DNA from: a virus
Strand: one strand, 5' to 3'
Virus record (IMG/VR): IMGVR_UViG_3300034170_000020
Span: 1 to 48,262 of that record
Length of the DNA stretch: 48,262 nucleotides
A program made the position numbers and the translations under genes. The first letter of the stretch is position 1; the number at the start of each line of letters is the position of its first letter. The notes under the pieces are model-generated. The model searched no databases and was not told the origin of the DNA. It saw only the letters and a program-made list of their open reading frames with translations. Shown one piece after another: positions 1,339-48,262 of the stretch.

Positions 1339-1730
1339 TAATTCAACCTGTAATATTGTGTACGACCGAAACTAGCCGAACGTAACTTATAAACTGGCGT
1401 CCAGATTACACCAACGCCTTCCATTGCGTGAAGTATACCGCCGCCGTCTATATCTAGATAGATGCCCACATGGGGCGTCTCGCCGCCGCGCATGAGCGCA
1501 CCACAGCCATGAACCGGCCTTTCTAGACGCGTCCACTGACCCAGGCTTATCTGGCCTTCGAAAAGGTTCTTACACGCCACAGGATCACCCAGCGGAGCTA
1601 ATGGCATTTGAATTTTAAAGTAATTGAGTTGAATAAAGTAAAGCAGCCCCCAACAGTTAAAACTATCGGGGCCGAATGAACCATTTTCGTATGGTAAGCC
1701 GATAAAATAATTAACGTCTGAACTGTTCAT
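1338..1730 (-). CDS. NlpC/P60 tail peptidase (lambda gpK-like)
   Basis: This 130-aa cysteine peptidase domain protein lies just before the J-like gene, as gpK does in lambda-type tails. The likely catalytic cysteine is in DSFNCWGLL (C26), the histidine in PHVGIY, and a third polar residue in LHAMEG. The family cleaves peptidoglycan peptides, so the protein probably opens the cell wall at the tail tip or processes a tail component. It is only about half the length of lambda gpK and has no visible JAB/MPN metalloprotease half. It overlaps the upstream gene by 4 bp (ATGA). Confidence 0.85.
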   Translation of the reverse strand: MNSSDVNYFIGLPYENGSFGPDSFNCWGLLYFIQLNYFKIQMPLAPLGDPVACKNLFEGQISLGQWTRLERPVHGCGALMRGGETPHVGIYLDIDGGGILHAMEGVGVIWTPVYKLRSASFGRTQYYRLN

Positions 1731-2260
1731 CGCGAAAGCGCCGGAAATCTTTCAGTGGTATATCGTTTCCACGGAAACGGCCAGTTATGAACGTCGCTTA
1801 GTGTGGCTGTTCCGCTAACCGTTGTAACCGAAGCCGAAGCCGAAGTCAGTTGCATTACCACAGGTGGGTCAGTTTGCGGGATACTTGTATCAGTATTTAG
1901 ATACTGTCGATAAATTAGTGTAATTGGTTCAGTTCGTGCGATGGCTTGTTCCAGATAAGTCGCAACTAACCGGCTTACGTTAGAGATACTGAACACTATT
2001 TTTGGAACTTCGTCTTCCGCAAAACCTGGGTCGGTAATATCAAAAGGTATCGGTAGAAATTCCAGTGTCTTGCCCGGGCGCAAAGGCGCGTCAACTTCAA
2101 GCGTACACATCCAAGATTCAAATGCGCGAACCGCCAAGATACTTGTTTGGTTTCCATTTTCGTCTACGAAAGCAGGGTGAATAAGTTCGATTGTATCTAA
2201 ACCATATTCATCAACTGGCTGTGACGCGTAACATTCTTTTAACGCTTCTGTCATTGACAT
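1727..2260 (-). CDS. Minor tail protein, DUF1833-like (gpL position)
   Basis: This 177-aa protein resembles the DUF1833 phage family: an N-terminal ELIHPAF segment followed by beta strands with PIPFDITDP. In such tails it occupies the place of lambda gpL, between the distal tail protein and the NlpC/P60 gene. I chose ATG 2260 because a GGGG Shine-Dalgarno sits 6-7 bases upstream and only one base separates it from the stop of the preceding gene. The longer in-frame start is a TTG inside that gene. Structural role is inferred from synteny and family resemblance. Confidence 0.75.
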   Translation of the reverse strand: MSMTEALKECYASQPVDEYGLDTIELIHPAFVDENGNQTSILAVRAFESWMCTLEVDAPLRPGKTLEFLPIPFDITDPGFAEDEVPKIVFSISNVSRLVATYLEQAIARTEPITLIYRQYLNTDTSIPQTDPPVVMQLTSASASVTTVSGTATLSDVHNWPFPWKRYTTERFPALSR

Positions 2261-2261
2261 G

Positions 2262-3092
2262 CTAAACCCCAATTGTCACTGTTCCGATGTATTCGGTGTC
2301 AAAATAACCTTCGTCAATATAGTCGCTTAGGAATGTAGAAACTAGATCAAGATATTGCCCGTAAGTCAACATAGGGGCTTCGAATGTTTCAAGCGACAGC
2401 GTTATCCAAAATTGGCAACCTTCTGGAGCCTCGCTAGGACTATTGGATATTCTAGCACGTAATAAACGTTCCCCTAGTGAATTGGCGAAAGGGGCTTGAA
2501 AATACGCAATACCGTCTTGAACCGCATCCCTATAGAACTGCCAAAAGATATCACGTTGCTGTAGATTCATAAGAATCTTACCGCTATATGTTGTGCTTCG
2601 CGTGCGGAATCTACGCCGAACTTCTGGCAAGCCTTCTTGAATATCCGAATAAGCAGGGCCACTTGTGGGCATTATTGTAAAATCGCGTTTATCTAGAAGC
2701 GGTAAAGTAACGGGCCAAACAGCCTGTTGGATATACATATTCGGCGCCGAACGCAATTCATCAAAGGTCATTGAAACATCCCAACCCATACCAACAGGTT
2801 TATAGGATGGTTTGCCATCAACTGCTCGCATTTTAACAGTTCGGTCGGCTAATGGAATATCCGCCCAGTTTTCACCAGCGTTCAAGGTATATTCTACCCA
2901 GGCTTCAAAGATTGCCGCTTGTTCGTATAACTGTAAACGCCAAGTTAAGCTGTAGCGAAACGGTTGTGAACCCCAACGCCGAACATCTGAATATAAATCA
3001 TCATCCATTTGGAAACGGTGCCGCTTTTGTGGCATTGTTCCCTGATAGCCATCGCGAACAGGAATAGGTAATTGCGTTGGATAGTTAGCCAT
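2262..3092 (-). CDS. Minor tail protein (distal tail candidate) with two related halves
   Basis: This 276-aa protein directly follows the tape measure gene and shares a TAATG junction with it. The two halves resemble each other: residues about 24-112 (RHRFQ, IFEAWVEY, WDVSMTFDE) and about 158-245 (RRRFR, IFWQFYRD, WITLSLETFE). Both combine an arginine-rich start, an IF-x-x-aromatic helix and a closing W-x-x-x-x-FE strand. Position suggests the distal tail ring or gpM-like tail tip. I do not recognise a named family with confidence. Confidence 0.7.
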   Translation of the reverse strand: MANYPTQLPIPVRDGYQGTMPQKRHRFQMDDDLYSDVRRWGSQPFRYSLTWRLQLYEQAAIFEAWVEYTLNAGENWADIPLADRTVKMRAVDGKPSYKPVGMGWDVSMTFDELRSAPNMYIQQAVWPVTLPLLDKRDFTIMPTSGPAYSDIQEGLPEVRRRFRTRSTTYSGKILMNLQQRDIFWQFYRDAVQDGIAYFQAPFANSLGERLLRARISNSPSEAPEGCQFWITLSLETFEAPMLTYGQYLDLVSTFLSDYIDEGYFDTEYIGTVTIGV

Positions 3093-6000
3093 TATCTATT
3101 CGCCGTCTGATGTTGAACGCCATAGCTTTTCTGGAAAGCATTCGAAAGTGGACCTTGCCCGGAACTGACTTTGCTAGCCAATGCGTTTTCGATGCTATCA
3201 ATCGTAACTGTAATATCTTTTCCGCCCTGATCGTTATCAGTTTGTTCTGTAGTAGCTGTTGTACCGTTTGCATTATTGATTACGGTTACGGTGACAGAAC
3301 CGCCAGTGCCTACATTACCGCCCGCTTGAACCATTTGAACGCTAGATGCACTTGCGCCAGCCGACGGCAACGGATTACCGCTTTGAATGGCGTCCATCGT
3401 TCCGATACCCAAACGCGAAACTGTGTCGGCGGTCATTACGTATTCACCGGCATGCACGAGACCTGCTACTTTATCCACCGCGCCGTTGCCGGTATACCCG
3501 CCCGCCTGGAAACCGGCCATTGCAAAGGAGGTTGACGCCACGTTGGCCGCACTGATCGCCGCCACAGCCGGGGCCGCGTTGGTGCCAAGGGTTGCAAGGG
3601 AAACAGCAGCAGCCGCAGGCGCCCACGCGATAGCCGTAGCCCCACCCAACGCGATAGAAGACGCCACGCCAGCAGCGCCCAGTGTTTGCCCAATAGCCGC
3701 GTTAATCGCGTATTGAATACCTAACTTAATCAGCGAAGCTATAAGCTGTTGCACGGCTTGTTGCGCCACGTTACGCAAAGCATCACCGAGGCTTTCGGTG
3801 CCCATGATTGCACCAGCTAACGCATTTGCGAAACCGTCTTGCAACGTTACGAACATATCGCCAAGCGCGGTTGTAACACCCGCCGCCATACCCTGATAAC
3901 CTTCTAGCAATCTACCGAAAGTGGCTGTAAGTTCATCGCCCGGAATAGCTTGGTCCATTGCGATACGCAATTGTGCGGCTTGTACGGCTAGCGTTTGCAT
4001 TTGCGCGCCGTACATCGACATGCCGATTGTTCCGTTATCATATGCAATTTTTAAAGCATCTTGCTTTTGGCGTATCTGTTCAAGAGTACCGCCAGTATCT
4101 GAATAAATTTGGTTGTACTGTTCTTGTACACCTTGCGCATACTGAACAGCCGCCGCTTGTGCCATGAGCGCGTCAACATCAGCTTTGCGTAAAGCTGTTC
4201 CGTTTTTCAACGCCTCTTGCTCGATTTGGTGACGTGTTGTCAGCAATTCAATTTGTTGGGCGTTCTTACCGAATGTTGATTCTTGAAACTCTAGTTCTTG
4301 ACGATACTTGCGAAGCGGGTCTACCGATTGGTTGAACGCTTCAACGGCGGAATCTAATTTCGCGTTGTACTGTTCTTGACTCAAGAAACCGGATTTCAGA
4401 AGAATATCAATAGCCGACAAATTAGCCGCGTATTCGTCAGACGGGCCTTGAATTTCTTCGTAAACCTTATCCATTTCTTGCGTGACTTGTTTTTGCAATT
4501 GAACAGCGGCAATCTTTTCTTTTATAGAGGCGGCTTCCGCCGCATTCAAAGTAATTTTCTTACCGGCAAGCTGTTCTTCGATTGCGTCAAATTGCTGTTG
4601 CTGTTCACGAATTGGTTTGAGCTGTTGCATACGCTGGATTTGATTATCTAACTGCAAATTGACTTTAGCTAAAGCAGCCGCACGGGATTCTCCAGCCTTA
4701 TCCCCGCCAGCGTCGTCAAATGCTTTTTTAATTCGGTCTTGTGCACCTTTTACAGAATTCTCTTGCCATTTTTTATAAAAGTCATCGAACTGTTTAGTTC
4801 GAATTTCCATAGAATTCTTGTATGCGTCCGCATATGCTTCGGCGGCACTTTTACCTTCTTCGGCTGGTCCACTTGCGTCCATGCGAGCAATTGGCATTGC
4901 TGCAATTTCTGGAATTTTAATATTGCCGAGTTTATTCATTGCCCCGGTGATTTGGTTAATACCCGCAATCGTTACGTTTATCAACGCTTCCAAAATCTTG
5001 GCAACGTTATTGTAAATAGCTACGAAAACATCACGAAAACCAGCGGGTAACTTTTTCCAAGCATTCAAAACTACAGCGGCTGCACCGTCACTAGCTGCAC
5101 CAATCATATTAAATTCTTGAATGGTGGTATTTACAAAATCTTTGTATTGCGTTTTTAATTTATCAAAGAATGACTTTGTGCTGTCGCCTAGACCGCTTAC
5201 TTCACTTACGGTAACAAAAAATGCTTTGAAAACATCAGTCATCGTGACTACATCACCGTGCATCTTTTTAATTTGTTGTGATGTTAGCCCCAAATCTTTA
5301 GAAAACTTTTCGATTGCTGAACTTTTTGTAAGTTCCAGCGACATGATTTTTAGCCCAGCCGCCAAGGCGCCCACCGCCGCCACCAAGGGTAAGAAGGGCG
5401 CAACCAAGGCCACAGCCGCCAAGGCCATTCGACCGAGCCCCACGCCAGCCTGTGCCGCAATACCTGCAACCTGTGCGCCTTGCTGGATAAATACTGTTAG
5501 CGGATTCTGCCCACTTGCAAGCGAAACACCAACGTCTTGAATTTGGAAACCCAAGTTGACTAAGTGGTGTCTTGCAAGTTGCGATGTTTGACCGACTTTA
5601 TTCACGCTGGTGTTGTAATCTTGCCAGCCCACAGTAGTCCGCTGTTGCGCGCTGTTGACTTCGGTCACAGCAGACGACATTGCACGATCAGCCGCTAACT
5701 TATCGCGTGCTGCGCGTGTTGCCTCTTGCAAAGCCTTAATTTCTTCTTGCGTAAACTGAACCTTTCTTTGTATTTCTACTGTTGCACTGCTTTGTGCGCG
5801 TGCGGCTTCGAAAAGCGAAGTGTTTTGATCGCGTTGGGCTTGGGTAGCGGCAATACCATTTTTAGCCAGTTGCAAAAGCCGGTCACTTGCCGAACTTGTT
5901 GCCGCCGCTGAGGCTTGTTGCGCGGCTGTGTTCTTGTCAATCTGTTGTTGCAATACGCGCAAGTTAGACGCCTGCATACGCGAACTTGCGGCAGCGTCAT

Positions 6001-6217
6001 TAAGGGCGCGTGTCTGCTTTTGAATTTCGGCGTTTGCGCTTTTCATCGATGATTCGATTGCCGATACTCCGCCAGAATCCAAACTATTCAACATCTTTTG
6101 CAGACGTTCAATAGCCGTGTAACTTTGTGTCGCGGCTGTACCGATTGCGCGTATACCGCTTTCGATTTGGGTCTTTACTGTACCCTGTACCTGAATATCA
6201 ACGTTTTCGGTAGTCAT
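3092..6217 (-). CDS. Tail tape measure protein
   Basis: The 1041-aa protein sets tail length and is threaded through the tail tube before DNA. It starts with a long helical coiled-coil region (1-220) rich in A, Q and S. The LGFQIQDVGVSLASGQNP signature typical of lambda-H-type tape measures comes next, then a strongly hydrophobic block (about 250-290). Further coiled coil follows, with an alanine-rich hydrophobic segment (about 800-900) and a C-terminal AGLVHAGEYVM motif. It is the longest single reading frame lying wholly inside the window, as usual for this family. ATG 6217 has a GGGTGA ribosome site and lies 20 bp inside the upstream gene. A GC-rich patch falls within 5345-5465. Confidence 0.95.
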   Translation of the reverse strand: MTTENVDIQVQGTVKTQIESGIRAIGTAATQSYTAIERLQKMLNSLDSGGVSAIESSMKSANAEIQKQTRALNDAAASSRMQASNLRVLQQQIDKNTAAQQASAAATSSASDRLLQLAKNGIAATQAQRDQNTSLFEAARAQSSATVEIQRKVQFTQEEIKALQEATRAARDKLAADRAMSSAVTEVNSAQQRTTVGWQDYNTSVNKVGQTSQLARHHLVNLGFQIQDVGVSLASGQNPLTVFIQQGAQVAGIAAQAGVGLGRMALAAVALVAPFLPLVAAVGALAAGLKIMSLELTKSSAIEKFSKDLGLTSQQIKKMHGDVVTMTDVFKAFFVTVSEVSGLGDSTKSFFDKLKTQYKDFVNTTIQEFNMIGAASDGAAAVVLNAWKKLPAGFRDVFVAIYNNVAKILEALINVTIAGINQITGAMNKLGNIKIPEIAAMPIARMDASGPAEEGKSAAEAYADAYKNSMEIRTKQFDDFYKKWQENSVKGAQDRIKKAFDDAGGDKAGESRAAALAKVNLQLDNQIQRMQQLKPIREQQQQFDAIEEQLAGKKITLNAAEAASIKEKIAAVQLQKQVTQEMDKVYEEIQGPSDEYAANLSAIDILLKSGFLSQEQYNAKLDSAVEAFNQSVDPLRKYRQELEFQESTFGKNAQQIELLTTRHQIEQEALKNGTALRKADVDALMAQAAAVQYAQGVQEQYNQIYSDTGGTLEQIRQKQDALKIAYDNGTIGMSMYGAQMQTLAVQAAQLRIAMDQAIPGDELTATFGRLLEGYQGMAAGVTTALGDMFVTLQDGFANALAGAIMGTESLGDALRNVAQQAVQQLIASLIKLGIQYAINAAIGQTLGAAGVASSIALGGATAIAWAPAAAAVSLATLGTNAAPAVAAISAANVASTSFAMAGFQAGGYTGNGAVDKVAGLVHAGEYVMTADTVSRLGIGTMDAIQSGNPLPSAGASASSVQMVQAGGNVGTGGSVTVTVINNANGTTATTEQTDNDQGGKDITVTIDSIENALASKVSSGQGPLSNAFQKSYGVQHQTANR

Positions 6218-6647
6218 TAATCACCCGCTTTGCAATCGGTTGAATCTTCTTAATAGATAGCGCGATTGTTTGCTGAATAAACATCGCGGGCGCCTGTCGG
6301 CTTGTGCCTTCGTTAAGATCGATGATATACGGGGTGTTGTTCGATAGCCAGTAAGATTGCCCGGGTAGACCGGGTTCAGCGGCAATTTTGGCTAATTGAT
6401 AAGTGTCCATAATACTAACGAATGCGGTAGAACCAAATGCACCATAATTGTGGGCATCGATAAAATCACGAGCGGGCGTATTAATAGAAACTTGCCAGTT
6501 AGAAAGAGCGGTGGAAGTATCAACCGGTGTTGCGTCGGCGAGGTCCGCAGCTAGTTCAACGACATAGGCTTTTGCAATATCGTTAGCGATAGCTGGCAAA
6601 GAATCCGCCAGCTTTGTCATTCTGTTTGAAAGTTCGATAAGGTTCAT
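6198..6647 (-). CDS. HK97 gp10-like tail completion/neck protein
   Basis: The 149-aa protein carries hallmarks of the HK97-gp10-like family: ATPVDTSTALSNWQ, then NNTPYIIDLNEGTSRQAP near the C terminus, followed by a hydrophobic helix. Family members sit at the head-tail interface (for example tail completion proteins). The position is unusual: it lies between the tail chaperone and the tape measure, not among the neck genes at 9-10.5 kb. It overlaps both neighbours (4 bp upstream, 20 bp downstream). Confidence 0.7.
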   Translation of the reverse strand: MNLIELSNRMTKLADSLPAIANDIAKAYVVELAADLADATPVDTSTALSNWQVSINTPARDFIDAHNYGAFGSTAFVSIMDTYQLAKIAAEPGLPGQSYWLSNNTPYIIDLNEGTSRQAPAMFIQQTIALSIKKIQPIAKRVINDYRKR

Positions 6648-6985
6648 TTATCACCCGGTTTCTTTTGAAGTTTCTTAACTCGCTTCAAGTTTTCCGCGTC
6701 CATCTTTCGAAGGAAATAAACCAAATCGTCAGTTTGATCGTCATCGAAGTTAAACGCCGAAGCGTAAAGCAGCATTGACGTTGTTGGAATTCCAGCGGGG
6801 CCGAATGAATGTGTTCTTTCGCTATCCAAATCAAAATAAGCCTGTAAATAAACGTCTAATCCGGCGTCAAGTTCAGGTTTATTCTTTATAAAATCGGGGA
6901 TCGGTTGACCCCCCATTTTAGCTTGCTTTAGAATCGTTTCTTCGCTAGACCCATGCGTTAAAACGTACAAAAGAACATCTGTTAG
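6644..6985 (-). CDS. Tail assembly chaperone GT extension, reached by -1 frameshift
   Basis: This reading frame has no convincing start; its first possible start codon is a TTG without a ribosome site. It is in the -1 frame of the preceding chaperone gene and open through the A-AAA-AAC heptamer at 6991-6985. A ribosome slipping there reads on as LTDVLLYVLTHG and adds 113 residues, giving a fusion of about 252 aa. This is the gpG/gpGT arrangement of lambda-type tails, placed as expected between tail tube and tape measure. The extension probably recruits tail-tube subunits to the tape measure. Frame geometry is seen directly; slippage itself is inferred. Confidence 0.85.
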   Translation of the reverse strand, partial: LTDVLLYVLTHGSSEETILKQAKMGGQPIPDFIKNKPELDAGLDVYLQAYFDLDSERTHSFGPAGIPTTSMLLYASAFNFDDDQTDDLVYFLRKMDAENLKRVKKLQKKPGDK

Positions 6986-7401
6986 TTTTTTGCGTCAGCT
7001 TCCCGGTTCGAATCCAGAAAGTTCGCGGTTTCGTTGGCCGCGTCGGAAAGTTCCTGATATAGATCAGGCAAATCGGTCATCAGCTTTTTGGCGTTTTCGG
7101 TCGAGAACGGAAGGTCGGCGCCCTGTTCGTTGCGAACGTTTTCCCAACCTTTGAGAATATGCCCACAAAACAAGTCAAGCAGAAGGTTTTCAGCGACCTC
7201 GTTTGAAAGCGTACCGGCCTTAATTGCTTGGCGGTGTGGTTTGAATGCGCGTTCACTTGCCAGCTTGTAAGTAGTGTTCGATTTACCGGCGCGGCTTACC
7301 ATGAAAACGATTTCGGTGCCGTCATCGTTCGAACCTTTGACGATGCGTGCGCCAAGATTTTCACGGGAAGAATCGGTTTTGTACTGTTTGTAAAGCGACA
7401 T
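6982..7401 (-). CDS. Tail assembly chaperone (gpG-like)
   Basis: This 139-aa protein starts at ATG 7401, preceded by GAGGG at a normal distance; the longer start is a TTG. It is predicted to be largely helical and acidic near its end (NREADAKN). Its stop TAA directly follows the slippery heptamer, so most ribosomes make this short form and a fraction make the longer fusion. Position after the tail tube gene and before the tape measure supports the chaperone role. The family is poorly conserved, so the call rests mainly on position and the frameshift. Confidence 0.85.
   Translation of the reverse strand: MSLYKQYKTDSSRENLGARIVKGSNDDGTEIVFMVSRAGKSNTTYKLASERAFKPHRQAIKAGTLSNEVAENLLLDLFCGHILKGWENVRNEQGADLPFSTENAKKLMTDLPDLYQELSDAANETANFLDSNREADAKN
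6985..6991 (-). promoter_or_regulatory. Programmed -1 frameshift slippery site A-AAA-AAC
   Basis: The zero-frame codons are GCA AAA AAC TAA. The heptamer A AAA AAC is in the right phase for tandem -1 slippage of both tRNAs. Slippage avoids the stop two codons later and enters the 6644-6985 frame. Confidence 0.88.
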
Positions 7402-9022: not shown

Positions 9023-9481
9023 TTAAATGATTTCATCACGTTCGTATTCGCATACTACGTTAATGCGTTGGAAAAGACTTTCGGGGCTTAGATTTGCGTC
9101 AATCCTAGCATTCCGAAACCAAATACCGTTTTCAGTTTTGCCACCGCGCAAACGATTCTGAACAAGTTCGGCAAGACGTTTTAATTTCTCGCTTACATCC
9201 GGCCCGGTGCGTGGCCCGAATAGCTGAACAACAACACGCCCGTTGTCGCGGTAACGTCGAGTGTACGCCACCACCGAGCAAGTCGAAAGCGTGGCCTGTT
9301 GGTCGGTAAGCGACACGACGGAAAGACGCGCCCAAAATGTGGGCACCCCAGGCGGATCATTTGTTTCTATACCTTGAAAACGCATTTCGGGAACGTAGCT
9401 TACAATTTCTTCCGAACGGTCAACCCAATGAGAATAAATAAACTTTCGAATTTCATTTTCGCCGCCAACATAATCAATCAT
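9023..9481 (-). CDS. Tail terminator-like protein
   Basis: The 152-aa protein is followed directly by the tail tube gene, the usual place for the tail terminator (lambda gpU-like). An alpha/beta composition with a central helix (SEKLKRLAELVQNRLRGG) fits that family. It overlaps the upstream joining gene by 4 bp (ATGA). Assignment rests mainly on position. Confidence 0.62.
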   Translation of the reverse strand: MIDYVGGENEIRKFIYSHWVDRSEEIVSYVPEMRFQGIETNDPPGVPTFWARLSVVSLTDQQATLSTCSVVAYTRRYRDNGRVVVQLFGPRTGPDVSEKLKRLAELVQNRLRGGKTENGIWFRNARIDANLSPESLFQRINVVCEYERDEII

Positions 9482-9849
9482 GAACCTAACACCATTGTAT
9501 AAAGAATGGGTCGGCCATTCGGCGCCAGTTTATCCATGTTATATATGGCCCAGGTCTTACCCTCATGCACGACAGTGGTGGTCAAATTAACATCAAAAGT
9601 TACAGCACCCATTAGCGCAAGAACTGCACCTTTGGGAACTTCCGTATTAGGCATTAATGATAACGTTTTTAATGTTCCAGAATCCAAAGTCAAGAAACAA
9701 ATCTTCACCGTATTGGTTTCGATAACTTCGGTTGTGTGCCACGGTTCGCCGGGAACTGGAACGATACGCTTGTTTGTGACCGGAACAGAAACACCGTATT
9801 TGGCAATTAAGCGTTTTGCGGTGTTAATCTGTCGGTCATAAATAGCCAT
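9478..9849 (-). CDS. Head-tail joining protein (stopper/adaptor candidate)
   Basis: This 123-aa beta-rich protein starts with a basic helix (DRQINTAKRLIAKYG) and contains the pattern typical of head-closure proteins (VPVPGEPWHTTEV, GKTWAIYNMDKLAPNG). It sits between the gp6-like adaptor and the tail terminator. I infer a head-closure or stopper role from order and fold type; no catalytic motif is present. Confidence 0.6.
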   Translation of the reverse strand: MAIYDRQINTAKRLIAKYGVSVPVTNKRIVPVPGEPWHTTEVIETNTVKICFLTLDSGTLKTLSLMPNTEVPKGAVLALMGAVTFDVNLTTTVVHEGKTWAIYNMDKLAPNGRPILYTMVLGS

Positions 9850-10071
9850 TTATTCGGACTCTTTCTTTTCAAACTTGGGTTGTTTTACTTTATATTTTTC
9901 AGCGTATGGTTCGGGAACCATACCCATAACACCGTCGCACTTTTCAAGCGGTTCATTTTCATCGAAAAGCTGAACATTGCGGAAAAGAACTTGCCCGTCA
10001 ACATTAGACATGGCTTTCATGTCTTCGCCACTTGGAGCGAAGCCATTTACAAAAAACAAAATCTTTTTCAT
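9850..10071 (-). CDS. Small structural-region protein, unknown function
   Basis: A 73-aa protein with a short hydrophobic beta start (KKILFFVNGFAPSGED), a central acidic part and a lysine-rich charged tail (KQPKFEKKESE). It lies one base downstream of the adaptor gene's stop and abuts the next joining gene. Location suggests a virion or assembly role, but no family is recognised. Confidence 0.6.
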   Translation of the reverse strand: MKKILFFVNGFAPSGEDMKAMSNVDGQVLFRNVQLFDENEPLEKCDGVMGMVPEPYAEKYKVKQPKFEKKESE

Positions 10072-10072
10072 G

Positions 10073-10576
10073 TTATCGACTCAACAGGAAATTGATAAAA
10101 ATAGGAATAAACAGCGGGGCGAGAATTGCTTCAATTTGCGCGAGGTATGGGTTTTCAATTCCCGTTGCAATAATGGCTTCTGCGTATTCGATTTCGATAG
10201 GGCCGACCTTTTCACGAGTCACGCCTTCGTTTATGGGGGATGCCCACACTTCAATGCCGGATTCCAGAAAACCGGCCAATACCACCTGGGCAAGTTTCAA
10301 TTCTTTCGGAATCTTGTCATCCGGGTAAATCTTACAGAAACGAGTCGAACGGCTTCGCGGGTAACTCAAACCCTGATCAGACGTGGCGCGTTCGCCGCTG
10401 AATCTGTTTTCATACGATCCGATTCTATCGGCAGACACAACAAGTTGTGCCGTCAGTTCGGGGTCATCAACTGAAAGAGTAATGCCGCGCATTGCCGCGA
10501 TTTCGCGGGCTTCCACCAAACCAATATAAGTATTGGCGTCTTCAATCCCGGTTCCGTCTTCAACAATGAGCGGCAT
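10073..10576 (-). CDS. Head-tail adaptor, DnaT-like (gp6-like) family
   Basis: The 167-aa protein resembles the phage family annotated as putative DnaT-like ssDNA-binding protein: start GTGIEDANTYI, a YPRSRS segment before the second helix, and LKLAQVVLAGFLESG. In head-tail gene clusters these proteins are connector/adaptor proteins that bind below the portal, not replication factors. A TGCCCACA copy lies inside at 10241. The family match is moderate; the adaptor role is inferred from location. Confidence 0.65.
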   Translation of the reverse strand: MPLIVEDGTGIEDANTYIGLVEAREIAAMRGITLSVDDPELTAQLVVSADRIGSYENRFSGERATSDQGLSYPRSRSTRFCKIYPDDKIPKELKLAQVVLAGFLESGIEVWASPINEGVTREKVGPIEIEYAEAIIATGIENPYLAQIEAILAPLFIPIFINFLLSR

Positions 10577-10586
10577 AACTTACCCC

Positions 10587-38845: not shown

Positions 38846-40101
38846 TGAAAAAAGAACTTCTTTATCACGCCGAATCTGATTGTTACCTTTTTGATTATTG
38901 GTCAGATAAATTATCATGGCAATTAGTGGAACCCGTTGGGCATTTGCCCGAACACGTCATAGAAGCTAAAAATCGAGGTATTACGATGGAAATCGAAAGT
39001 GATGTTAAGCCGCCTGAATTCTTCGCCGAAGAACCAGTAAAGAAAGGGCGAGCTAAGGCAACACCTAAAGCCGTTGATCAGGTTATGGAAAACTTGAAAA
39101 TGCTAGGTCAGATTATCAAGAAAAACGGCACCGTTCAGGAAACCCACATTAGTATTTATGATGGTTTCGCAACCGCGTGCATTGGTGAACTGACAATCGG
39201 TTGCCCGTTCCCGTTCAATGTGAACGCTATCGTGAAGCATCACGATTTGCTTGAAGCGAAGAAAGTGGCCGGTACTGAATTCGCTTGCACGGCCAACGGG
39301 GAACAACTGGTGATCGTCGCGGGCGAAGTACGGATGGTCATTGCAGCGGACTACAGCCAAGTGTGGGCAAGCCCTCAACCCGATAGCCCCATAGCACCAG
39401 CAACCGACCGCCTACGCACAGCCCTGAGCGCTGTGGCCCCCTTCGCGACAGACGACCGCCCGATAATCCAGGGCGTTCTGTGCCAAGCAAATACAACCGT
39501 CGCTACGAACGGTCATGCAATACTTGAAGTGTGGCACGGTGTCGATATGCCGCCGAATTTGCGTTTGCCTGTGTCATTCATTAAAAAGCTAGAAAAGATT
39601 AAACGCGCCATAACACAATTTGGTTTCTCCGAATCATCATTCACGGTATGGTTTGAAGACGGATCATACATTCGGACAGCTATGTATTTTGGTCAATACG
39701 TCCAATACGGCCAGTTGTTCAGCGATACGAATGAATACGAATTAGTAGACTTACCGGACGAATTTTATAAAACGTTGAAAGCTATTCAAGCATTCGCAAA
39801 AGATGGTGTTGTGTATTTCCGCGACGGCCAAATCTATACAGCAAAGAACGCCGAATCAGCATCAAGTTTTAAACTGGAAACTATACCCAATGGCTTTGGG
39901 TTTAACATCAAATTTTTGCTTTTAATTGCGGGTCACGCGCCGACCGTTAAGTTCATGAACAGTTGTGATAAGGTTCAGTTTGAATGCGGAAACGCACGCG
40001 GTGTTGTGATGGGCATTGATATGCGCCCACCTCAAAAGATTGCACAGCCTGTACCCGATGATCAGTATAACGATAATTTCGAAGACGACATTCCGTATTG
40101 A
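38845..40101 (+). CDS. Beta-clamp-like protein with SSB-type C-terminal tip
   Basis: 418 aa from ATG 38845 (GGAG upstream, TGATG coupled). Residues about 85-405 resemble DNA polymerase III beta: LRTALSAVAPFATDDRPIIQGVL followed by VATNGHAILEVW (second domain), and a third domain closing FNIKFLLLIAG...RGVVMGIDMRP, like the M-P-M-R end of DnaN. An N-terminal extension of about 80 residues is specific. After the clamp end, a polar linker leads to NFEDDIPY, nearly the E. coli SSB tip DFDDDIPF. No clamp loader gene was seen. Confidence 0.75.
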   Translation: MKKELLYHAESDCYLFDYWSDKLSWQLVEPVGHLPEHVIEAKNRGITMEIESDVKPPEFFAEEPVKKGRAKATPKAVDQVMENLKMLGQIIKKNGTVQETHISIYDGFATACIGELTIGCPFPFNVNAIVKHHDLLEAKKVAGTEFACTANGEQLVIVAGEVRMVIAADYSQVWASPQPDSPIAPATDRLRTALSAVAPFATDDRPIIQGVLCQANTTVATNGHAILEVWHGVDMPPNLRLPVSFIKKLEKIKRAITQFGFSESSFTVWFEDGSYIRTAMYFGQYVQYGQLFSDTNEYELVDLPDEFYKTLKAIQAFAKDGVVYFRDGQIYTAKNAESASSFKLETIPNGFGFNIKFLLLIAGHAPTVKFMNSCDKVQFECGNARGVVMGIDMRPPQKIAQPVPDDQYNDNFEDDIPY

Positions 40102-40112
40102 GGGTTTAAAAC

Positions 40113-40319
40113 ATGGTAGGTTGGCCCGATCCATTAGAAAGCGAAACCGCAAATTTTATAAGAAATAGTACGGAAGTTGACACAAAAATTCGTGACCTTT
40201 TTGACCAATTAGAAAGAGAAATTATGCTGCATAGGAATTATAAAAAAACCAACCGCTGCCATAATTGTTTAAAAGCTATAGACTCCGATACTTGGTTTTG
40301 CAATTGCGAGGGTAAGTAA
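40113..40319 (+). CDS. Small zinc-finger-like protein
   Basis: 68 aa: acidic helical start, then NRCHNCLKAIDSDTWFCNCEG, a four-Cys zinc cluster. GAGG ribosome site; its stop abuts the polymerase ATG. Possibly a polymerase accessory protein; function unknown. Confidence 0.66.
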   Translation: MVGWPDPLESETANFIRNSTEVDTKIRDLFDQLEREIMLHRNYKKTNRCHNCLKAIDSDTWFCNCEGK

Positions 40320-42422
40320 ATGGCCGTTTTTCAAGGTTTCATAGAAGGTAAACGCGACCTTTCAGGTTCTAAATACGACCTGTCAAAGTTGGCGAAGAAA
40401 GTAAAACCTGTTCGGTATATGACTGACGAAGAATTAATGTCCATCCCATCAGGTACACCATTCGTATACGACATTGAAACTTATCCGAATTGGGTAGCCT
40501 TTGGCTTTAAAGAAATCGGCGGCGAAGGTCGTGTTGTACATTTGGAACTTAGCGAAGAATCGCCAGAAATGGACCGATTGAAGCTAGGCTACATGCTAGC
40601 CAACTTTTTGTTAATTGGCTATTTCTCTAATAACTTCGATAAATATTTGTTGATTGCTGGCATTCAGGGTTTAAGCCTTGAAGAAATTAAAGAAATGGCA
40701 GACGACATTATCAATCGCGGAAACGAAGCGCGAAACGGTGTTGGTAAACCAATGTACTCCCGCGAAATTGAGGCTAAATATCGAATTAGTGTTCCTGACA
40801 TGAATCATATCGACTTGATCGAAGTATGCCCGTTGTCGGCCAGTTTGAAAATGTATGCCGCTCGTTTGCACTATCCAGTTATTCAAGATTTACCATTCGA
40901 CCCTACCGAACCACTTGCCGCTGATGAACGTGAAGTCGGGCGCATGTACCTGGGCAATGACTTGGGCATGACTGAATTTGTGTGGTTAAACTTACTTGAG
41001 CAAATGAAACTCCGCATCGATATGTCAGCTCAATATGACGTTGACCTTCGTAGCAAGTCAGATGCTCAAATAGCGGAAGCGGTTATTTGTAAAGAACTAG
41101 AAAAGGCTTTGGGTTTTTATCCAGAACGTCCACGCTTACCAGCCGACTATACGTTCAAATATAAAATTCCTGAATACATTCAATTTCAAACACCATTACT
41201 ACAAGAGTTTCTTGTTAAAGTCGGGCAAGCCGAATTCCCATTAGATAACGGCGGTGGCCCGGTTCTTCCTGAAATGTTAGACGTACTATTGCCAATCGGT
41301 AACAGCGTTTACCAATTCGGTATTGGCGGCTTACACTCCACTGAAAAAACGAAAGGTGTGTTCAAAGGTAAAAAACGTAAACAAAAAGATATCGATGTTG
41401 AATCATTTTACCCTAAAATTATTCGTAACCAGCGGTTATACCCTGCCCACATTGGCGAAGGTTTCTTGCTGGTGTACGGCGACATTGTAGACCGTCGAGT
41501 CGCGGCCAAGCGTGCTAAAAACAAAGTAGTGGCTGACGCACTAAAGATTGTTATTAACGGGTCATTCGGTAAGTTTGGTTCGAAGTGGTCGGCCTTCTAT
41601 TCACCCGACCTTATGGCGCAGACCACAATTAGCGGTCAACTTTCTTTGCTCATGTTGATTGAAATGTTTGAGCTAAATGGTATTTCTGTAGTGAGTGCAA
41701 ACACTGACGGTATCGTTATTGTTTATGACGACCATCAAGAAGAACTTTGCCACAACATCCAGAAAGGATGGGAAGCACATTGCGACTTCAAGCTAGAGGA
41801 TACAAATTATTTAGCTTTGCTTAGTCGTGACGTTAACAATTATATGGCCGTTAAAGCCAAGTATGACAAAGAAACCGAAACCTATTTGGACATTCCAGAC
41901 GGTATCAAGGTCAAAGGTGCTTACGGTAATCCGTGGGATGATAAAGATATGGCTATTTTCCGATTCCACAAGAACCCGGAAACAACCATTTGTACAATTG
42001 CCGCGCAAGAGTACATCACGAAAGGCACACCAATCAGCAAGACGGTTCGCGAATGCCAGGACATTACCAAGTTTGTGGCCGTGCGACAGGTTGACGGTGG
42101 GGCCGTGTGGCTATCGAACGGCACAGCCTCGACAGTTACGACCCACGGTAGTTTCGACCGCCAGGGGATAGGTCAGAGGCCCGACGATGGCGAGTTTGTG
42201 GGCAAGGTGGTGCGCTGGTACTACGGCAAAGGATCGCTTTCTACCCTGAACTACAAGCGAAGCGGGAACAAGGTTCCAAAGACTGACGGGGCCATTCCGA
42301 TTATGGATTTCACCGTTGGATTCCCAACCGATATTGATTATGATTGGTATATTCGCGAAGCTAAAGATATGCTTTACGATATTGGGTATAAACGTAAACC
42401 TACGACTTTGCAATTGATATAA
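40320..42422 (+). CDS. DNA polymerase, family B
   Basis: 700 aa. The 3'-5' exonuclease has Exo I VYDIETYPN (D51, E53), Exo II YFSNNFDKYLL and Exo III-like MYLGNDLGM. The polymerase has motif A DIDVESFYPKI (about 357), motif B LKIVINGSFGKFG (about 410) and motif C SANTDGIVIVYD (about 460), where Asn replaces the first Asp of the usual D-T-D. No protein-priming TPR2 insert is obvious. It is last in the plus operon, beside clamp-like and zinc proteins, and ends at the convergent terminator. A GC-rich patch lies at 42060-42260. Confidence 0.93.
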   Translation: MAVFQGFIEGKRDLSGSKYDLSKLAKKVKPVRYMTDEELMSIPSGTPFVYDIETYPNWVAFGFKEIGGEGRVVHLELSEESPEMDRLKLGYMLANFLLIGYFSNNFDKYLLIAGIQGLSLEEIKEMADDIINRGNEARNGVGKPMYSREIEAKYRISVPDMNHIDLIEVCPLSASLKMYAARLHYPVIQDLPFDPTEPLAADEREVGRMYLGNDLGMTEFVWLNLLEQMKLRIDMSAQYDVDLRSKSDAQIAEAVICKELEKALGFYPERPRLPADYTFKYKIPEYIQFQTPLLQEFLVKVGQAEFPLDNGGGPVLPEMLDVLLPIGNSVYQFGIGGLHSTEKTKGVFKGKKRKQKDIDVESFYPKIIRNQRLYPAHIGEGFLLVYGDIVDRRVAAKRAKNKVVADALKIVINGSFGKFGSKWSAFYSPDLMAQTTISGQLSLLMLIEMFELNGISVVSANTDGIVIVYDDHQEELCHNIQKGWEAHCDFKLEDTNYLALLSRDVNNYMAVKAKYDKETETYLDIPDGIKVKGAYGNPWDDKDMAIFRFHKNPETTICTIAAQEYITKGTPISKTVRECQDITKFVAVRQVDGGAVWLSNGTASTVTTHGSFDRQGIGQRPDDGEFVGKVVRWYYGKGSLSTLNYKRSGNKVPKTDGAIPIMDFTVGFPTDIDYDWYIREAKDMLYDIGYKRKPTTLQLI

Positions 42423-42849: not shown

Positions 42850-44939
42850 TTTCCTCGTGCATACCAGTTATGGTCCAATGGTGTTACAGAAAAACCAGAA
42901 CTAATACGGAACTGTGAGAGGGATAATGCAGCATATCCACTGTTTGCCTCTCCCGCTGTAGCCCGACCAAGAGACCGGGGAGCGGCGTTGAAGTATTGTA
43001 CTACGCTTAAGAAAGGCGTATTGAATGAAAAAACAATACCTGATGCTGTATTAGCTACAGATACAGTTCCCCATTGTTCAGTTGTGCCATCTGAATATTT
43101 GCGCCACCCATTAGTATCAGTCCCGCCTGTACTTATTACGGAAAGTTTAGTTTCTATGGCAGTTCCTTGTGCGTTCACTGTATTCGACAAAACAGTCACG
43201 TCAACAGTTCCGGTATTTGCCCCTACCTTAGCGACGGTAGTGCACCAAATGACAGTGGAGTTTGCAGGCCGTGTTTCAGTACCTGATCGCGGAGTGCCAT
43301 TAACTCCATCTGTGAACGGTGCGCTATTTCGCTCGTAACCATTGGAGATAGCAGTAGAGCCCGCAGGGTAGTAGCCTTGACCTGTCCCACCCGCGATAGC
43401 ACTACTAACAACTCCAAAGGCGTCTGATGTGCTGTTATTGGCGTGCTGGTTTGATGCAGTACGAAACCCCTGGAATTGGTCCGCCTGATGCAAGCCAGGA
43501 GTTCCGGCCGAGTTCTTGCCATCACCACGTAAAACCATCGCAGCAATGGTGTTGCCATCCGCATGCTTGGCGTTATCGTCCGGCATGCGGAAGTCTGTAG
43601 TGCCATTACCCAGCGAGAACATGCCACGACTTGTATACGGCGCAGCAAGCCACACGGCATCAGTAACACAGAAGGGCTGGATCAGTGCCCAAAACTCGGG
43701 GTATAGAGTTCGGCCGTTCGTTACGATCTGCCCATCGTTCGGGAGTCGTCCGCCTGGGATGGTCGCACGGCTAAATTTCCAGGGCTTGATATCACCGATA
43801 TTATCGCCACCGCCGCCCGCCGCTTCTTCAAAAATACCTTTATCCGAAAGGAATTTAGGATTTGCACCCAAAATGCCAGGGGCTGGAACTAAACCCTTTG
43901 TACCTGCAACACTTGAGGTTGCGCCAACAACTGTGGGTAAACCATCACGAAGCAAACCGAAACCAGTTGCATCTATAGCAGTTAGTCGGGTTATATCGTT
44001 GTTTACACCCTTCATTGCACGGGCTGTGATTTGGGCTTGCAATTTGCCCATCGAAACCAGAAAGCTGTCACCTGCTACAATTGCGACGGCGGAAGTTACA
44101 TCCAAACCAAGCAAAGTAACAAGGCGAACAGCCGCCGCTAAATCGCTGATTGTTGAAGCGAGTTGTGTTCCGGTATGTGTGGAACGGTCGCGCAATTGGG
44201 CGTTAGTTGCGTTAGCGGTAGCCCCGTCAGCAATACCGCCCAACTTAGTTTCTTCCGAATCAGTAAACGCATTCGTATCAGGGTTCGATTCGTAAAGGGT
44301 TTTAACTTGTGCGGCAGTTAAAGAAGTTCCCGAACCAGAAGAAACCCATACACTATCCGTAACATCCCAAATATATCGAATGGCATCTGTGCCTGTTCCC
44401 TCGTCAACATCTGCGTAATCACCGGCCAACGGTGACGAAACACCGCCTGTTAAAGCCGAAAGGCTGACAAACACACCACGGAAATGACTATTTTCTAATC
44501 CGGCAAGTTTAGTTTTTTCTGGATCAGTAAAGTCATTTGAACTAAGAACTTTTCCCGATACTTTGTCAACTTTCTTATCAAGTTCTATTTGGGTTGCTGT
44601 TGAAACTGGTTTATCGGTATCTGCGGTATTAGAAACATTGTTTAAAGCAAGCGCAATTTTTAAAGCACTATCTGATTCATAACCAATAAGCTGTAAGCCA
44701 TATGCTGTGATTGGTTTTACTTCTAGAGTATTTGTGCCTGTCAAATGCAAAATACTATTAGCTGCCCACACACTAGCCGCAATTGCCGTCAGCTTTTCAT
44801 TGGACGTTTGCTTGCTTCCTAGTTGGCTATCGAGGTATTGGTCGTTCGCGACCAATAGTGACCAATTCGCATCACCTTCCGCCCAAGTTAATGGGCTGGT
44901 TTTATTTGAACGAAGTGTAACGTTTATAGAAATTGGCAT
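42846..44939 (-). CDS. Tail fibre with collar-like domain
   Basis: 697 aa. N-terminal virion-binding part, fibre repeats (DFTDPEKTKLAGL near 135; AFTDSEETKLGGIADGAT near 225), and from about 385 a tail-collar-like domain (GDIKPWKFSRATIPGG, YPEFWALIQPF, FRMPDD). A C-terminal receptor-binding type end follows (WGTVSVANTASGIVFSFNTPFLS). Probably trimeric, binding the host surface. Overlaps the assembly chaperone gene by 4 bp. Confidence 0.88.
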   Translation of the reverse strand: MPISINVTLRSNKTSPLTWAEGDANWSLLVANDQYLDSQLGSKQTSNEKLTAIAASVWAANSILHLTGTNTLEVKPITAYGLQLIGYESDSALKIALALNNVSNTADTDKPVSTATQIELDKKVDKVSGKVLSSNDFTDPEKTKLAGLENSHFRGVFVSLSALTGGVSSPLAGDYADVDEGTGTDAIRYIWDVTDSVWVSSGSGTSLTAAQVKTLYESNPDTNAFTDSEETKLGGIADGATANATNAQLRDRSTHTGTQLASTISDLAAAVRLVTLLGLDVTSAVAIVAGDSFLVSMGKLQAQITARAMKGVNNDITRLTAIDATGFGLLRDGLPTVVGATSSVAGTKGLVPAPGILGANPKFLSDKGIFEEAAGGGGDNIGDIKPWKFSRATIPGGRLPNDGQIVTNGRTLYPEFWALIQPFCVTDAVWLAAPYTSRGMFSLGNGTTDFRMPDDNAKHADGNTIAAMVLRGDGKNSAGTPGLHQADQFQGFRTASNQHANNSTSDAFGVVSSAIAGGTGQGYYPAGSTAISNGYERNSAPFTDGVNGTPRSGTETRPANSTVIWCTTVAKVGANTGTVDVTVLSNTVNAQGTAIETKLSVISTGGTDTNGWRKYSDGTTEQWGTVSVANTASGIVFSFNTPFLSVVQYFNAAPRSLGRATAGEANSGYAALSLSQFRISSGFSVTPLDHNWYARGK

Positions 44940-45632: not shown

Positions 45633-45907
45633 TAAAATAACCCATAATCTATAATTAACGATCTGGTCGCTGCGGTCCAGCTTATGACATTACCGTTTAA
45701 AGTAAATTCGGGGTATGTTGCATTGGAAAACATACCTGCCGAATTCGGGTCTTTTGCATAATAAAAAGGAGTTCCCGAACCTACAACCGTAACCGAACCG
45801 GCCACGTTTGCAGTGGTCGTGATAGTTCCAGAAATTCTAACAAGTCTAGTCGTTATGCTTATTTGTAGAACCCCAGTCGGGCCGTATACTTCAATACCTG
45901 CGGGCAT
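45632..45907 (-). CDS. Small tail-tip accessory protein
   Basis: 91 aa from ATG 45907, four bases after the J-like stop; the longer frame uses TTG. GIEVYGPTGVLQISITTRLVRISGTITTTAN matches the start of the 227-aa neighbour. Beta-rich throughout. TAATG junction with the next gene. Confidence 0.66.
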   Translation of the reverse strand: MPAGIEVYGPTGVLQISITTRLVRISGTITTTANVAGSVTVVGSGTPFYYAKDPNSAGMFSNATYPEFTLNGNVISWTAATRSLIIDYGLF

Positions 45908-45909
45908 TT

Positions 45910-48262
45910 TTACCAAATCCCATCACGAAGACGCAAAACATTGTTTCCATCGTAAACCCTTTTACCCAAACCGTCACGTTCAACACGACCGACACCGGAA
46001 ACAATACCACGGCTTACAATCGCACCGGTTTGAAAGTTAAGACTAAGTATGGGGTTCCCGCTGCCGTCCACGGCTACTGAGTTCAATGTTGCGCCAATTA
46101 AGGCGGTAACGATAGTAGCTTGCTGAATGAATGCTGATTTAATGTAGGTATTATTCCCGTCAACCATAAAGGGACTACTAATAACACCGCTGTTATTGTT
46201 GATCAATGCAAACTTATCAGCGAGCATAGAAATGGTTGTAGTGACGGTTCCCGTTTCATTTGAGACGCCGATACCAATACCGGCAATATATGGAATGCCC
46301 CCCACTGTCAATTGTGTTTTGATTGTGTACATTGCAGAAAGCGAGCCATTTGTATTGGCAATCGATTGTGCGTTAACTTGGGTTGCCGCCATAGCCCCGT
46401 TAGCAATTGCGGTTGTTGAGTCAATTGTCTGTGCCAATGCACCGTCGCTGTTTTCCCGAAGAATTCGTTCTTCGTCAATTGCGGCGTATACCGGACCCAA
46501 ATCAACATCGGGTGATTCGATTTCGGCAATAAGTTCTGCGGTTAATTGCTGCTTACTAATTTGGTCTGTCAGGTAATCAAGCATTTTGTCAGGATTAGTA
46601 TCGCTTATTTGTGTAATGGCCGCTTGATTATTAAACCACGGGCCGAAACGCCCAGCCGTATCAGTGCAACGAGCCCAAAAATAACGACGTTCCGAAGGCC
46701 CAAGGTTGTCCACACCAGTTTTACTTGCTGGATACGGAAGCGTAATTAACAGCGAAGAACTAGCGAATACGTCAGTTATACCCATGCGTATTTCGATAGA
46801 TTTAGTAATCGTTGACATTTCAGGATCGAAAGCCCAATTCAAATCAATGCCAAACAGTTTCGATGTGCCCACAAATGCTGTAAGGCGTGGCGTCGGAAGG
46901 CTTGTAGCTTCGATGGTGCCGGTCCAACTGGCCCATGGCCCCTCGATACGACCGACGCCACGAACGCGCACGGTCCACTCTCCAGGCGACAGATTAGCAA
47001 CCAGTGTGGGCACATCTGACGTACCTAAACGTTGCCAATCATTCGTACCCGTCTTAGCTTGAAATTCGTAATAGATTGCGTTGCGCGTAACCGTAGCAAC
47101 GATATTCTGAACTCCAACGGTAATTGTATAAACCACAGTGACCGAATCAATTACAGGACGATCATTCAAACCGGGAAGATTTGATTCAGGCGGTAGCGGT
47201 GGAGTAATACCGCCGTTTTCGGCAGTGTAAACACTATCTGCATAGTTAATACATGTGATTGCAACACGACCTTGGGAGTCGGGACGGCATTTTTGAACCA
47301 ACGCCAAAATACCACGCTGTTCAGAAGGTCCAGCGCTATAGTGCGTGTAATCTTCTTTAACACCGTTGCTTATATAAATCTGTGCTTTTTCTAGTTCGGT
47401 CCCGACCAAGATAAAACCAAACTCATTTGAATCAGAGTCTAGCGTTGAATCCGCAATAATTGAATACGGGCCGTCTTCCGCACCGTTTCGTTTACGAAAA
47501 GCAACCTTGTATTCGCCTGTTGGATCAAATGGAACCGGTTCAGTGGTTCGCACTTGTCCGGTGGTTCGATTGAAAGATAGAACGCGACCGCCATAACCCC
47601 ATTGTGGAACATCGTGCATCACACGTATTAACGAGTTGTAGCCCGGAATCAAGCCGGGTTTCAATGTCGAAAACTCAATACTTTTTCTTCGGTCACGGTT
47701 GGACGCAATCATTGACATTCCGAGTTTGTAAGCCTGATCGCGACTTTTGCATCCTTTAACGGTCACTCGTGTGGGATTGCGTTTCAAAGAATCGGGAAAA
47801 GCGCAAGTTACTTCGGCAGTTTTATAACTTGTCGGATCAGTATATTCGATAACTACATGATCCGGGGTTTCGTGGTCATGAAACTGATAGGTTAGGTTAA
47901 ACGAACCCTTTACCATAGTTGCCGGACTAAATTGAGCTGTAACTATTGATTGCGGTTCATCGCGAATAAAGTCAATAACACCAGCGTAATACATTGGCGT
48001 TGCACGACCACACATTAGGATAACTTTCAAGGCTTCCCATAGTTGCGAAGTCGTATCGAAAACGCCGTGAAACTTATCGCCACGAGTTTCCCAAATTTGA
48101 TCCAAACGATATAAGTTTTCAATATTAAAACGACTTGTTGCTAAACCGCGCCCGTAATCCTCATTTCGGATTACGTCAGCCGCCGCCCATGCGATATTGT
48201 CGCATGGTTCTTCGGCCCCCCAACCTTCGATTGGATTCCACTTTTGCAAGTACGACGTAGAA
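45910..48262 (-). CDS. J-like tail tip protein, C-terminal part (residues 447-1187)
   Basis: Continuation of the gene that starts at 1338; bases above 48135 repeat 1-127. It continues the J-type body (WNPIEGWGAEEPCDNIAWAAADVI, GKFHGVFDT-like core). Two fibronectin III-like domains follow around VTVVYTITVG...WTVRVRGVGRIEGPWASW. A DUF1983-type central fibre end closes the protein (IDEERILRENSDGAL, ADKFALIN, SSPFMVDGNNTYIKSAFIQ). The last domain is usual for lambda J relatives and may contact the receptor. Two octamers (46866 plus, 47005 minus) flank a GC-rich patch. Confidence 0.92.
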   Translation of the reverse strand, partial: STSYLQKWNPIEGWGAEEPCDNIAWAAADVIRNEDYGRGLATSRFNIENLYRLDQIWETRGDKFHGVFDTTSQLWEALKVILMCGRATPMYYAGVIDFIRDEPQSIVTAQFSPATMVKGSFNLTYQFHDHETPDHVVIEYTDPTSYKTAEVTCAFPDSLKRNPTRVTVKGCKSRDQAYKLGMSMIASNRDRRKSIEFSTLKPGLIPGYNSLIRVMHDVPQWGYGGRVLSFNRTTGQVRTTEPVPFDPTGEYKVAFRKRNGAEDGPYSIIADSTLDSDSNEFGFILVGTELEKAQIYISNGVKEDYTHYSAGPSEQRGILALVQKCRPDSQGRVAITCINYADSVYTAENGGITPPLPPESNLPGLNDRPVIDSVTVVYTITVGVQNIVATVTRNAIYYEFQAKTGTNDWQRLGTSDVPTLVANLSPGEWTVRVRGVGRIEGPWASWTGTIEATSLPTPRLTAFVGTSKLFGIDLNWAFDPEMSTITKSIEIRMGITDVFASSSLLITLPYPASKTGVDNLGPSERRYFWARCTDTAGRFGPWFNNQAAITQISDTNPDKMLDYLTDQISKQQLTAELIAEIESPDVDLGPVYAAIDEERILRENSDGALAQTIDSTTAIANGAMAATQVNAQSIANTNGSLSAMYTIKTQLTVGGIPYIAGIGIGVSNETGTVTTTISMLADKFALINNNSGVISSPFMVDGNNTYIKSAFIQQATIVTALIGATLNSVAVDGSGNPILSLNFQTGAIVSRGIVSGVGRVERDGLGKRVYDGNNVLRLRDGIW
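48136..48262. repeat. Right copy of 127-bp end overlap
   Basis: Identical to bases 1-127; see the left copy. Remove one copy to obtain the 48,135-bp circular map. Confidence 0.93.

Follow-up and report, generated by a model that had tools for sequence, protein, structure and literature searches.

The window analysed here is the whole of IMG/VR virus record IMGVR_UViG_3300034170_000020 (48,262 nt), a phage genome along which one octamer, TGCCCACA (reverse complement TGTGGGCA), recurs and in which a DNA primase gene provides the candidate reader of that word. An exact 127-bp direct repeat at the two ends (1-127 and 48136-48262) indicates that the record, though classed as linear, closes into a circle of 48,135 bp; a J-like tail gene is open across the circle junction. 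The replication genes comprise the primase (31016-33367, minus strand) and, together on the plus strand at 34108-42422, those for Sak4, a single-strand DNA-binding protein (SSB), a Cas4-domain exonuclease, a helicase, a sliding clamp and the DNA polymerase. The phage is a distant relative of Septimatrevirus-type siphophages (73, KL1): the replication genes are common to them, and DNA similarity, searched for with half of the window, is confined to one tail gene. Searches of the window for tRNA genes and Rfam families gave no match.

A recount of TGCCCACA returned 27 exact copies between 1463 and 47012, 16 on the plus and 11 on the minus strand, identical in number, orientation and coordinates to those given by a first-pass annotation of the sequence. 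Markov models of orders 1-4 predict 1.54, 1.20, 1.41 and 2.11 copies, in line with the roughly 1.5 that the annotation had assigned to chance. The word is the commonest octamer of the window, the runner-up having 16 copies and the reversed-word control a single one, and it tops the 8-mer enrichment at 24.6 on a -log10 Poisson scale (order-3 model). Its flanks are weakly informative: G never follows directly on the 3' side (0 of 27), and T is favoured as the second base (16 of 27). The listed open reading frames (ORFs) contain 26 of the 27 sites, and the word is read there in every frame and in either orientation (as Val-Gly, Trp-Ala, Ala-His, Pro-Thr and others); protein constraint, already doubted in the annotation, therefore fails as an explanation and was rejected.

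The site is written below as TGTGGGCA, because the reverse complement proved to be the meaningful orientation. On the plus strand it lies at 2664-2671, 6449-6456, 9338-9345, 17724-17731, 23514-23521, 29957-29964, 31501-31508, 33593-33600, 39362-39369, 42197-42204 and 47005-47012. The minus-strand copies are at 1463-1470, 7160-7167, 10241-10248, 13101-13108, 15214-15221, 16984-16991, 18222-18229, 20476-20483, 22929-22936, 25496-25503 (the sole one not in the listed ORFs), 28263-28270, 31415-31422, 33681-33688, 41444-41451, 44763-44770 and 46866-46873.

The primase gene encodes 783 amino acids (PHROG 3022 DNA primase, E 3e-246), comprising an archaeo-eukaryotic primase (AEP) catalytic domain at about residues 1-180, a helix-bundle domain (HBD) at about 190-275 and a C-terminal NTPase/helicase-like part. 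The HBD matches the Pfam NrS-1 pol-like HBD family PF22763 above the cut-off (E 5e-9, residues 221-262), and sequence matches in the PDB include 7ola, 6k9a and 6a9w. Residues D84, D86, H119 and E136, which we take to be the AEP catalytic motifs (DxD, sxH and the acidic residue), do not vary in alignments of 45 and 61 relatives. An AlphaFold model of residues 1-310 (pLDDT 92.6) has helices at 190-273, and its best Foldseek matches among solved folds are NrS-1 N300 (6jon, E 3.5e-18) and the pRN1 primase (3m1m, E 1e-7), with 9aam also matched; the TM-scores are low (0.45-0.47 and 0.30) over two flexibly joined domains. Motifs, HBD and predicted fold together place the protein in the PrimPol (archaeo-eukaryotic primase) family with an NrS-1-type HBD.

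To follow the octamer beyond the window, relatives were gathered via the primase, most of them with 41-56% identity across the aligned region. In nine of the 11 full genomes initially examined, and also in fragment L001, TGTGGGCA is the top octamer; the full genomes contain 14-26 copies each against 0.2-1.1 expected. Copy numbers are 19 in phage 73, 18 each in KL1, AH03, Kimi and PSV3, 16 each in FtMidnight and RcHartney, 26 in PmaS-R3 and 24 in AB_SZL7, whose primase is 36% identical. In Yazdi-M the word ranks second with 14 copies, below a shifted register of itself, and ply2008005c is the sole exception among the 11, its word being TGTGG[ACT]CA. Individual sites are conserved as well: 9 of 12 between 73 and KL1, as against 21% for octamers of the same composition (P 1e-4), and 6 of 9 between 73 and FtMidnight, as against 10%. 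The hosts of the octamer phages (Pseudomonas, Burkholderia, E. coli, Rhodobacter, Sphingomonas, Paracoccus and Acinetobacter) span the alpha-, beta- and gammaproteobacteria. The same octamer in three proteobacterial classes implies that the word follows the phage and not the host, and a host-driven word, be it Chi, an uptake sequence or a target of host restriction, was rejected on this ground.

The survey was extended to 80 metagenomic loci around related primases, which with the named phages and the window gave 94 sequences of at least 9 kb. A TGTGGNNA word is the single most enriched octamer in 51 of these; in many of the remaining sequences a shifted register (TTGTGGGC, ATGTGGGC, TTGTGGGG) comes out on top or the octamer ranks high, and some short metagenomic loci carry little octamer signal. 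The 24 whole metagenomic records hold 12-31 exact copies against 0-3 of the reversed control, apart from L083 and L086, which have no TGTGGGCA array and use TTGTGGGG. A literature search for octamer words or such arrays, with partial journal coverage, found nothing.

More distant relatives, with primases 25-41% identical, use other words, every one of them containing TGTGG. The dialect TGTGGTCA is present in 34 copies in NP1, 44 in Vibrio CA8, 31 in JenP2 and 24 in ART, and TGTGGTTA in 41 copies in GottfriedDienst; VpKK5 combines TGTGGCCA and TGTGGTCA (19 and 18 copies), both of which also occur in 2.117.O. Loci L083-L086 use TTGTGGGG, Rosemountvirus ciri has 28 copies of TTGTGGGT, and the contractile-tailed RHEph04 uses CTGTGGW. 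In RHEph04 and ciri, whose words are shifted at the 5' side, the HBD is the one region of the primase to have lost its profile match. RHEph04 (L101) has the same replication module and TGTGG core as the siphophages, and appears from this to be a case of module exchange across morphotypes. In phages with genes for 7-deazaguanine DNA modification (L010, L013-L017, L103, L108), T, A or C replaces G at position 6, the words being TGTGGTCA, TGTGGCCA and TGTGGTTA; the phages may share this by lineage, or may thereby avoid a third modified G.

The arrangement of the sites is regular when each strand is taken separately. The coefficient of variation (CV) of same-strand gaps is 0.45 and 0.51 for the two strands of the window, 0.28 and 0.29 in PmaS-R3, 0.34 and 0.26 in RHEph04, and mostly 0.26-0.67 across genomes, as compared with a median of about 0.9-1.0 for control k-mers of equal count. 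Shuffling the strand labels destroys the evenness in nearly all of 17 genomes (mean z -2.2; P<0.06 in 16 of 17), and rotating one strand relative to the other changes nothing, which indicates that each strand is regular and that the two are mutually independent. Seven held-out metagenomic records repeated the result (uniform P 1e-9, label shuffle P 7e-6). On most strands the mean same-strand gap is about 2-3.5 kb, and the largest gap is mostly 3-7 kb, ciri being left out of these figures because its overlapping registers are double-counted. In its scale, this per-strand spacing resembles that of Okazaki fragments and is compatible with them.

Over-long gaps are often occupied by weaker forms of the word. 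Mismatches at positions 7 and 8 of TGTGGGCA occur at 4.1 and 3.1 times the expected frequency and sit in same-strand gaps (z 7.1 each), indifferent to the opposite strand; mismatches at positions 2-6 are neither enriched nor gap-filling, and position 1 is intermediate. When single-mismatch words outside the GTGG core are added to the sites of the window, the largest gap on one strand shrinks from 8386 to 4124 bp, which not one of 5000 random placements equalled, and that on the opposite strand from 7763 to 4045 bp (P=0.04); words with a core mismatch leave the largest gaps unreduced. Different dialect words within one genome likewise fill each other's gaps in JenP2, NP1, 2.117.O and ply2008005c, though not in ART.

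On the plus strand of the window, the gap 9338-17724 holds TGTGGGGA (12518-12525) and CGTGGGCA (13600-13607), the gap 17724-23514 holds TGTGGGTA (20838-20845), and the gap 23514-29957 holds TGTGGTCA (26034-26041), which is the exact Nipunavirus dialect. Between 33593 and 39362 lie CGTGGGCA (36433-36440) and TGTGGGCC (36831-36838), and between 42197 and 47005 a further TGTGGGTA (43932-43939). The minus-strand gap 1463-7160 contains AGTGGGCA (5508-5515) and TGTGGGCT (5626-5633), the gap 28263-31415 contains GGTGGGCA (29087-29094) and TGTGGGTA (30227-30234), and the gap 33681-41444 contains TGTGGGTA (36535-36542) and TGTGGGAA (37451-37458). One single-mismatch word, TGTGGACA (46707-46714, minus), adjoins the site at 46866 and fills no gap. 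The single mismatches listed by the first-pass annotation at 5508, 13600, 29087 and 36433 were all found, a fifth was moved from 30225 to 30227, and every one of them fills a same-strand gap. The annotation had also described the word as exact; near-cognates are indeed rare, but strict exactness does not hold, positions 7 and 8 being relaxed in long same-strand gaps.

These features bear on two rival explanations. A duplex-DNA recognition site for nicking or modification, in the manner of T5-like or phiKMV-like nicks, a methylase or a self-protection mark, would suit a sharp, non-palindromic word spread genome-wide through all modules, and the annotation had named modification among the possible roles. 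A duplex mark, however, requires no even spacing per strand with the strands independent, and graded near-cognates in same-strand gaps would be unexpected for a modification site; nor was a methyltransferase found among the window proteins scanned, some small ORFs lying outside the scan. We consider this explanation very unlikely. Scattered operators of a phage repressor, like the stoperators of mycobacteriophage L5, are more unlikely again. The number of sites per genome is about that of the L5 stoperators, and many relatives have a gene for a helix-turn-helix (HTH) protein next to that of the primase. Yet 26 of the 27 sites lie inside genes in both orientations, where stoperators would be mostly intergenic and oriented with transcription, and the spacing is even on each strand independently. 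Several octamer genomes, moreover, have no detected HTH homolog, although small proteins may be missed; the same observation speaks against the small HTH protein as a reader.

The two strands differ in density. The terminase-coding strand is the denser in all 10 genomes compared (nine relatives and the window; 197:119), and no switch of the strand bias along the genome was found in the seven genomes examined. A strand switch at an origin, as simple bidirectional replication would give, is not seen; sites occur on both strands throughout the genome, and the excess on the strand that encodes the terminase is uniform. The excess looks as if most forks ran with late transcription while the other strand still needed sites.

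Candidate readers of the octamer were compared by a gene-content matrix and by the area under the curve (AUC) of gene divergence as a predictor of dialect difference. The DNA polymerase (40320-42422, plus; PHROG 1252) was excluded, since RcAqua and AXY1 share the polymerase alone and have no octamer, and five phages with the octamer (Kimi, PmaS-R3, ply2008005c, 2.117.O and ciri) lack this polymerase. The terminase, the portal and the DUF3268 protein were rejected because the octamer is present where no homolog of them was detected. The Cas4 nuclease, helicase, Sak4, SSB (34885-35604, plus; PHROG 6015, E 3e-43) and DUF7173 protein all have homologs in Mcat31 and 1N2-2, neither of which has a TGTGG octamer; both are without this primase, and 1N2-2 has a primase of the Toprim type. 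As predictors of dialect, the primase domains gave the AUC values 0.85 (HBD), 0.84 (C-terminal domain) and 0.83 (catalytic domain, PP), followed by DUF7173 (0.81), Cas4 (0.79), Sak4 (0.67) and the helicase (0.64). By this comparison of gene content the octamer follows the primase, and not the polymerase, the terminase or the Cas4 cassette.

The Cas4 cassette is central to a Chi-like explanation, which the annotation had raised as control of the exonuclease. On this account the Cas4-domain exonuclease (36172-37107, plus; PHROG 1990) and the superfamily II helicase (37085-38845, plus; PHROG 16, Pfam ResIII), running from a DNA end, would read the octamer in one orientation and switch from degradation to recombination. 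Strand-specific and regularly spaced sites are predicted here too, E. coli Chi likewise contains GTGG, and in all octamer genomes whose gene content was compared the Cas4 nuclease, helicase and Sak4 are encoded close together. Mcat31 and 1N2-2 speak against it, indirectly and through their gene content, as they keep the nuclease and helicase cassette with another primase and no octamer, so that reading by the nuclease and helicase of the same system is not borne out; the helicase is also the worst predictor of dialect, and Cas4 ranks below the primase. A host Chi is unlikely because the octamer follows the phage clade across host classes. Altogether, we regard a Chi-like function as improbable. 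A packaging or DNA-compaction word of the terminase or a virion protein, another role proposed in the annotation, would agree with the genome-wide distribution, but the same core persists in NP1 and in RHEph04, where no homolog of this terminase was detectable and, in RHEph04, the tail is contractile. Its probability appears close to nil.

The gene-content test leaves the primase and the sliding clamp (38839-40101, plus; PHROG 947). A replication protein other than the primase (the clamp, the SSB, the DUF7173 protein or an unrecognised small protein) might read strand-specific sites, for example for loading or pausing, and the clamp has the same presence and absence as the primase, with the DUF7173 protein close in AUC. 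To our knowledge, however, clamps and SSBs do not read sequence, homologs of DUF7173 and SSB occur without the octamer in Mcat31 and 1N2-2, and the core of the octamer equals the core known for this primase family. We therefore favour the primase, whose family is the only one of the two known to read sequence, and with the same core; a reader elsewhere in the replication module seems quite unlikely.

Together, our results indicate that the octamers are very probably the initiation sites of the phage PrimPol-type primase, used on each strand when that strand is a single-stranded template, and we infer that the primase binds the octamer and primes at it. The broader proposal of the first-pass annotation, that of a genome-wide word belonging to a DNA-transacting enzyme and explained neither by codons nor by regulator sites, is borne out; primase initiation was not among the roles that it suggested. 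Still, several observations weigh against the assignment to the primase. The sliding clamp tracks the octamer in presence and absence as well as the primase does. Differences in AUC between neighbouring genes are modest, the genes share their history, and multiple regression did not single out the HBD. In RHEph04 and ciri the HBD profile goes unmatched even though the catalytic and C-terminal parts match, and between L014 and L017, which use different dialects, no site conservation was found. The pooled P-values for spacing overstate the evidence because the genomes are related. Listeria phage PSA, phiSP119-3 and 9NA have primases with the catalytic and HBD domains, a different C-terminus and no TGTGG octamer, and the NrS-1 genome has only two copies of TTTGGTTA and no genome-wide array (PMC7102993). 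From the latter cases it follows that the array belongs to this clade of primases and does not extend to every primase with an HBD.

In the proposed mechanism, TGTGGGCA would be the template recognition octamer of the primase and TGCCCACA its complement. The HBD would bind GTGG and its 3' flank in the single-stranded template. If priming proceeds as in pRN1, synthesis by the catalytic domain would then begin opposite the invariant T directly 5' of GTG, giving primers whose first base is A. Each strand of the genome keeps a site per 2-4 kb, exact wherever that can be had and replaced by a weaker variant in over-long gaps, so that either strand could be primed throughout when exposed as lagging-strand or displaced single-stranded template.

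Several known systems share parts of this scheme. The NrS-1 PrimPol uses TTTGGTTA, works more efficiently with GTGG or GTGA, and starts at the base 5' of the motif (PMC8718748). It has the same PrimPol-HBD fold and family, an 8-letter template site and the GTGG core, and the Seuratvirus word TGTGGTTA is one letter off its own. In NrS-1, however, the enzyme is itself the replicative polymerase, whereas the phage of the window encodes a separate DNA polymerase and clamp and has 27 exact copies evenly spaced per strand. The HBD of ORF904 from the Sulfolobus plasmid pRN1 binds GTGCTCA in single-stranded template and needs GTG; the first primer base is an A, set opposite the template base on the 5' side of GTG (PMC8076596). 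GTGCTCA resembles GTGGTCA and GTGGGCA; in pRN1, by contrast, the trinucleotide suffices, no genome-wide array is described and the C-terminal helicase is a different one. The gene 4 primase of T7 also primes the lagging strand sequence-specifically, and the sites of one strand here are spaced like its Okazaki fragments, which average about 3 kb and range from 1 to 6 kb (PMC12839067). That enzyme is of the DnaG/Toprim type with a zinc domain, and its site is very common (504 GTC in the lagging region) and chosen by its flanks, unlike the rare, long word found at regular spacing on both strands of the window. As regards bacterial octamers of the Chi and KOPS type, these too are oriented 8-mers spread through coding DNA by selection. 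They are read by host recombination or segregation enzymes, whereas the word described here follows a phage primase.

Some further sequence features deserve mention. In the divergent region between the primase and replication operons the octamer forms an 11-bp perfect inverted pair (ATGTGGGCAAT; 33592-33602 and 33679-33689), 76 bp apart, and the minimum of the cumulative GC skew is close by, at 33410. The intergenic stretch 29081-29738 contains about ten TATCCCG words (seven of them TATCCCGA), which surround an AT-rich core and in part form inverted pairs; the stretch is iteron-like or operator-like and is perhaps an origin or a regulator region. A similar cluster of CTATCCCC flanks the primase gene of ply2008005c (L010, 4154-4168 and 6651-6891). 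Salmonella phage 9NA (L018, 3167-3446) carries a dense AGCAGCAT/AGCATAAGC array within a minus-strand ORF, where more than 20 copies are packed into about 280 bp.

More broadly, and with somewhat less assurance than for the function of the octamer itself, we think it likely that this large clade of phages encodes its lagging-strand priming map in the genome itself, in the form of a regular per-strand octamer array, with graded back-ups against drift and with a word (TGTGGNNA dialects) that changes with the DNA-reading domain of the primase. The specificity of an uncharacterised primase, and the likely Okazaki map, would then be readable from sequence alone. Primase start sites are usually too short and too common, as GTC in T7, for selection on them to show in a genome; octamers are long and rare enough for number, spacing, orientation and mismatch tolerance to be read directly. 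This would make several questions testable in well-studied laboratory phages, namely the distance of lagging-strand priming, whether both strands serve as lagging template, how the reading domain of a primase co-evolves with dozens of sites, and what an uncharacterised PrimPol recognises. The clade may also be a source of PrimPol enzymes with differing 8-letter specificities for primer-free DNA synthesis.

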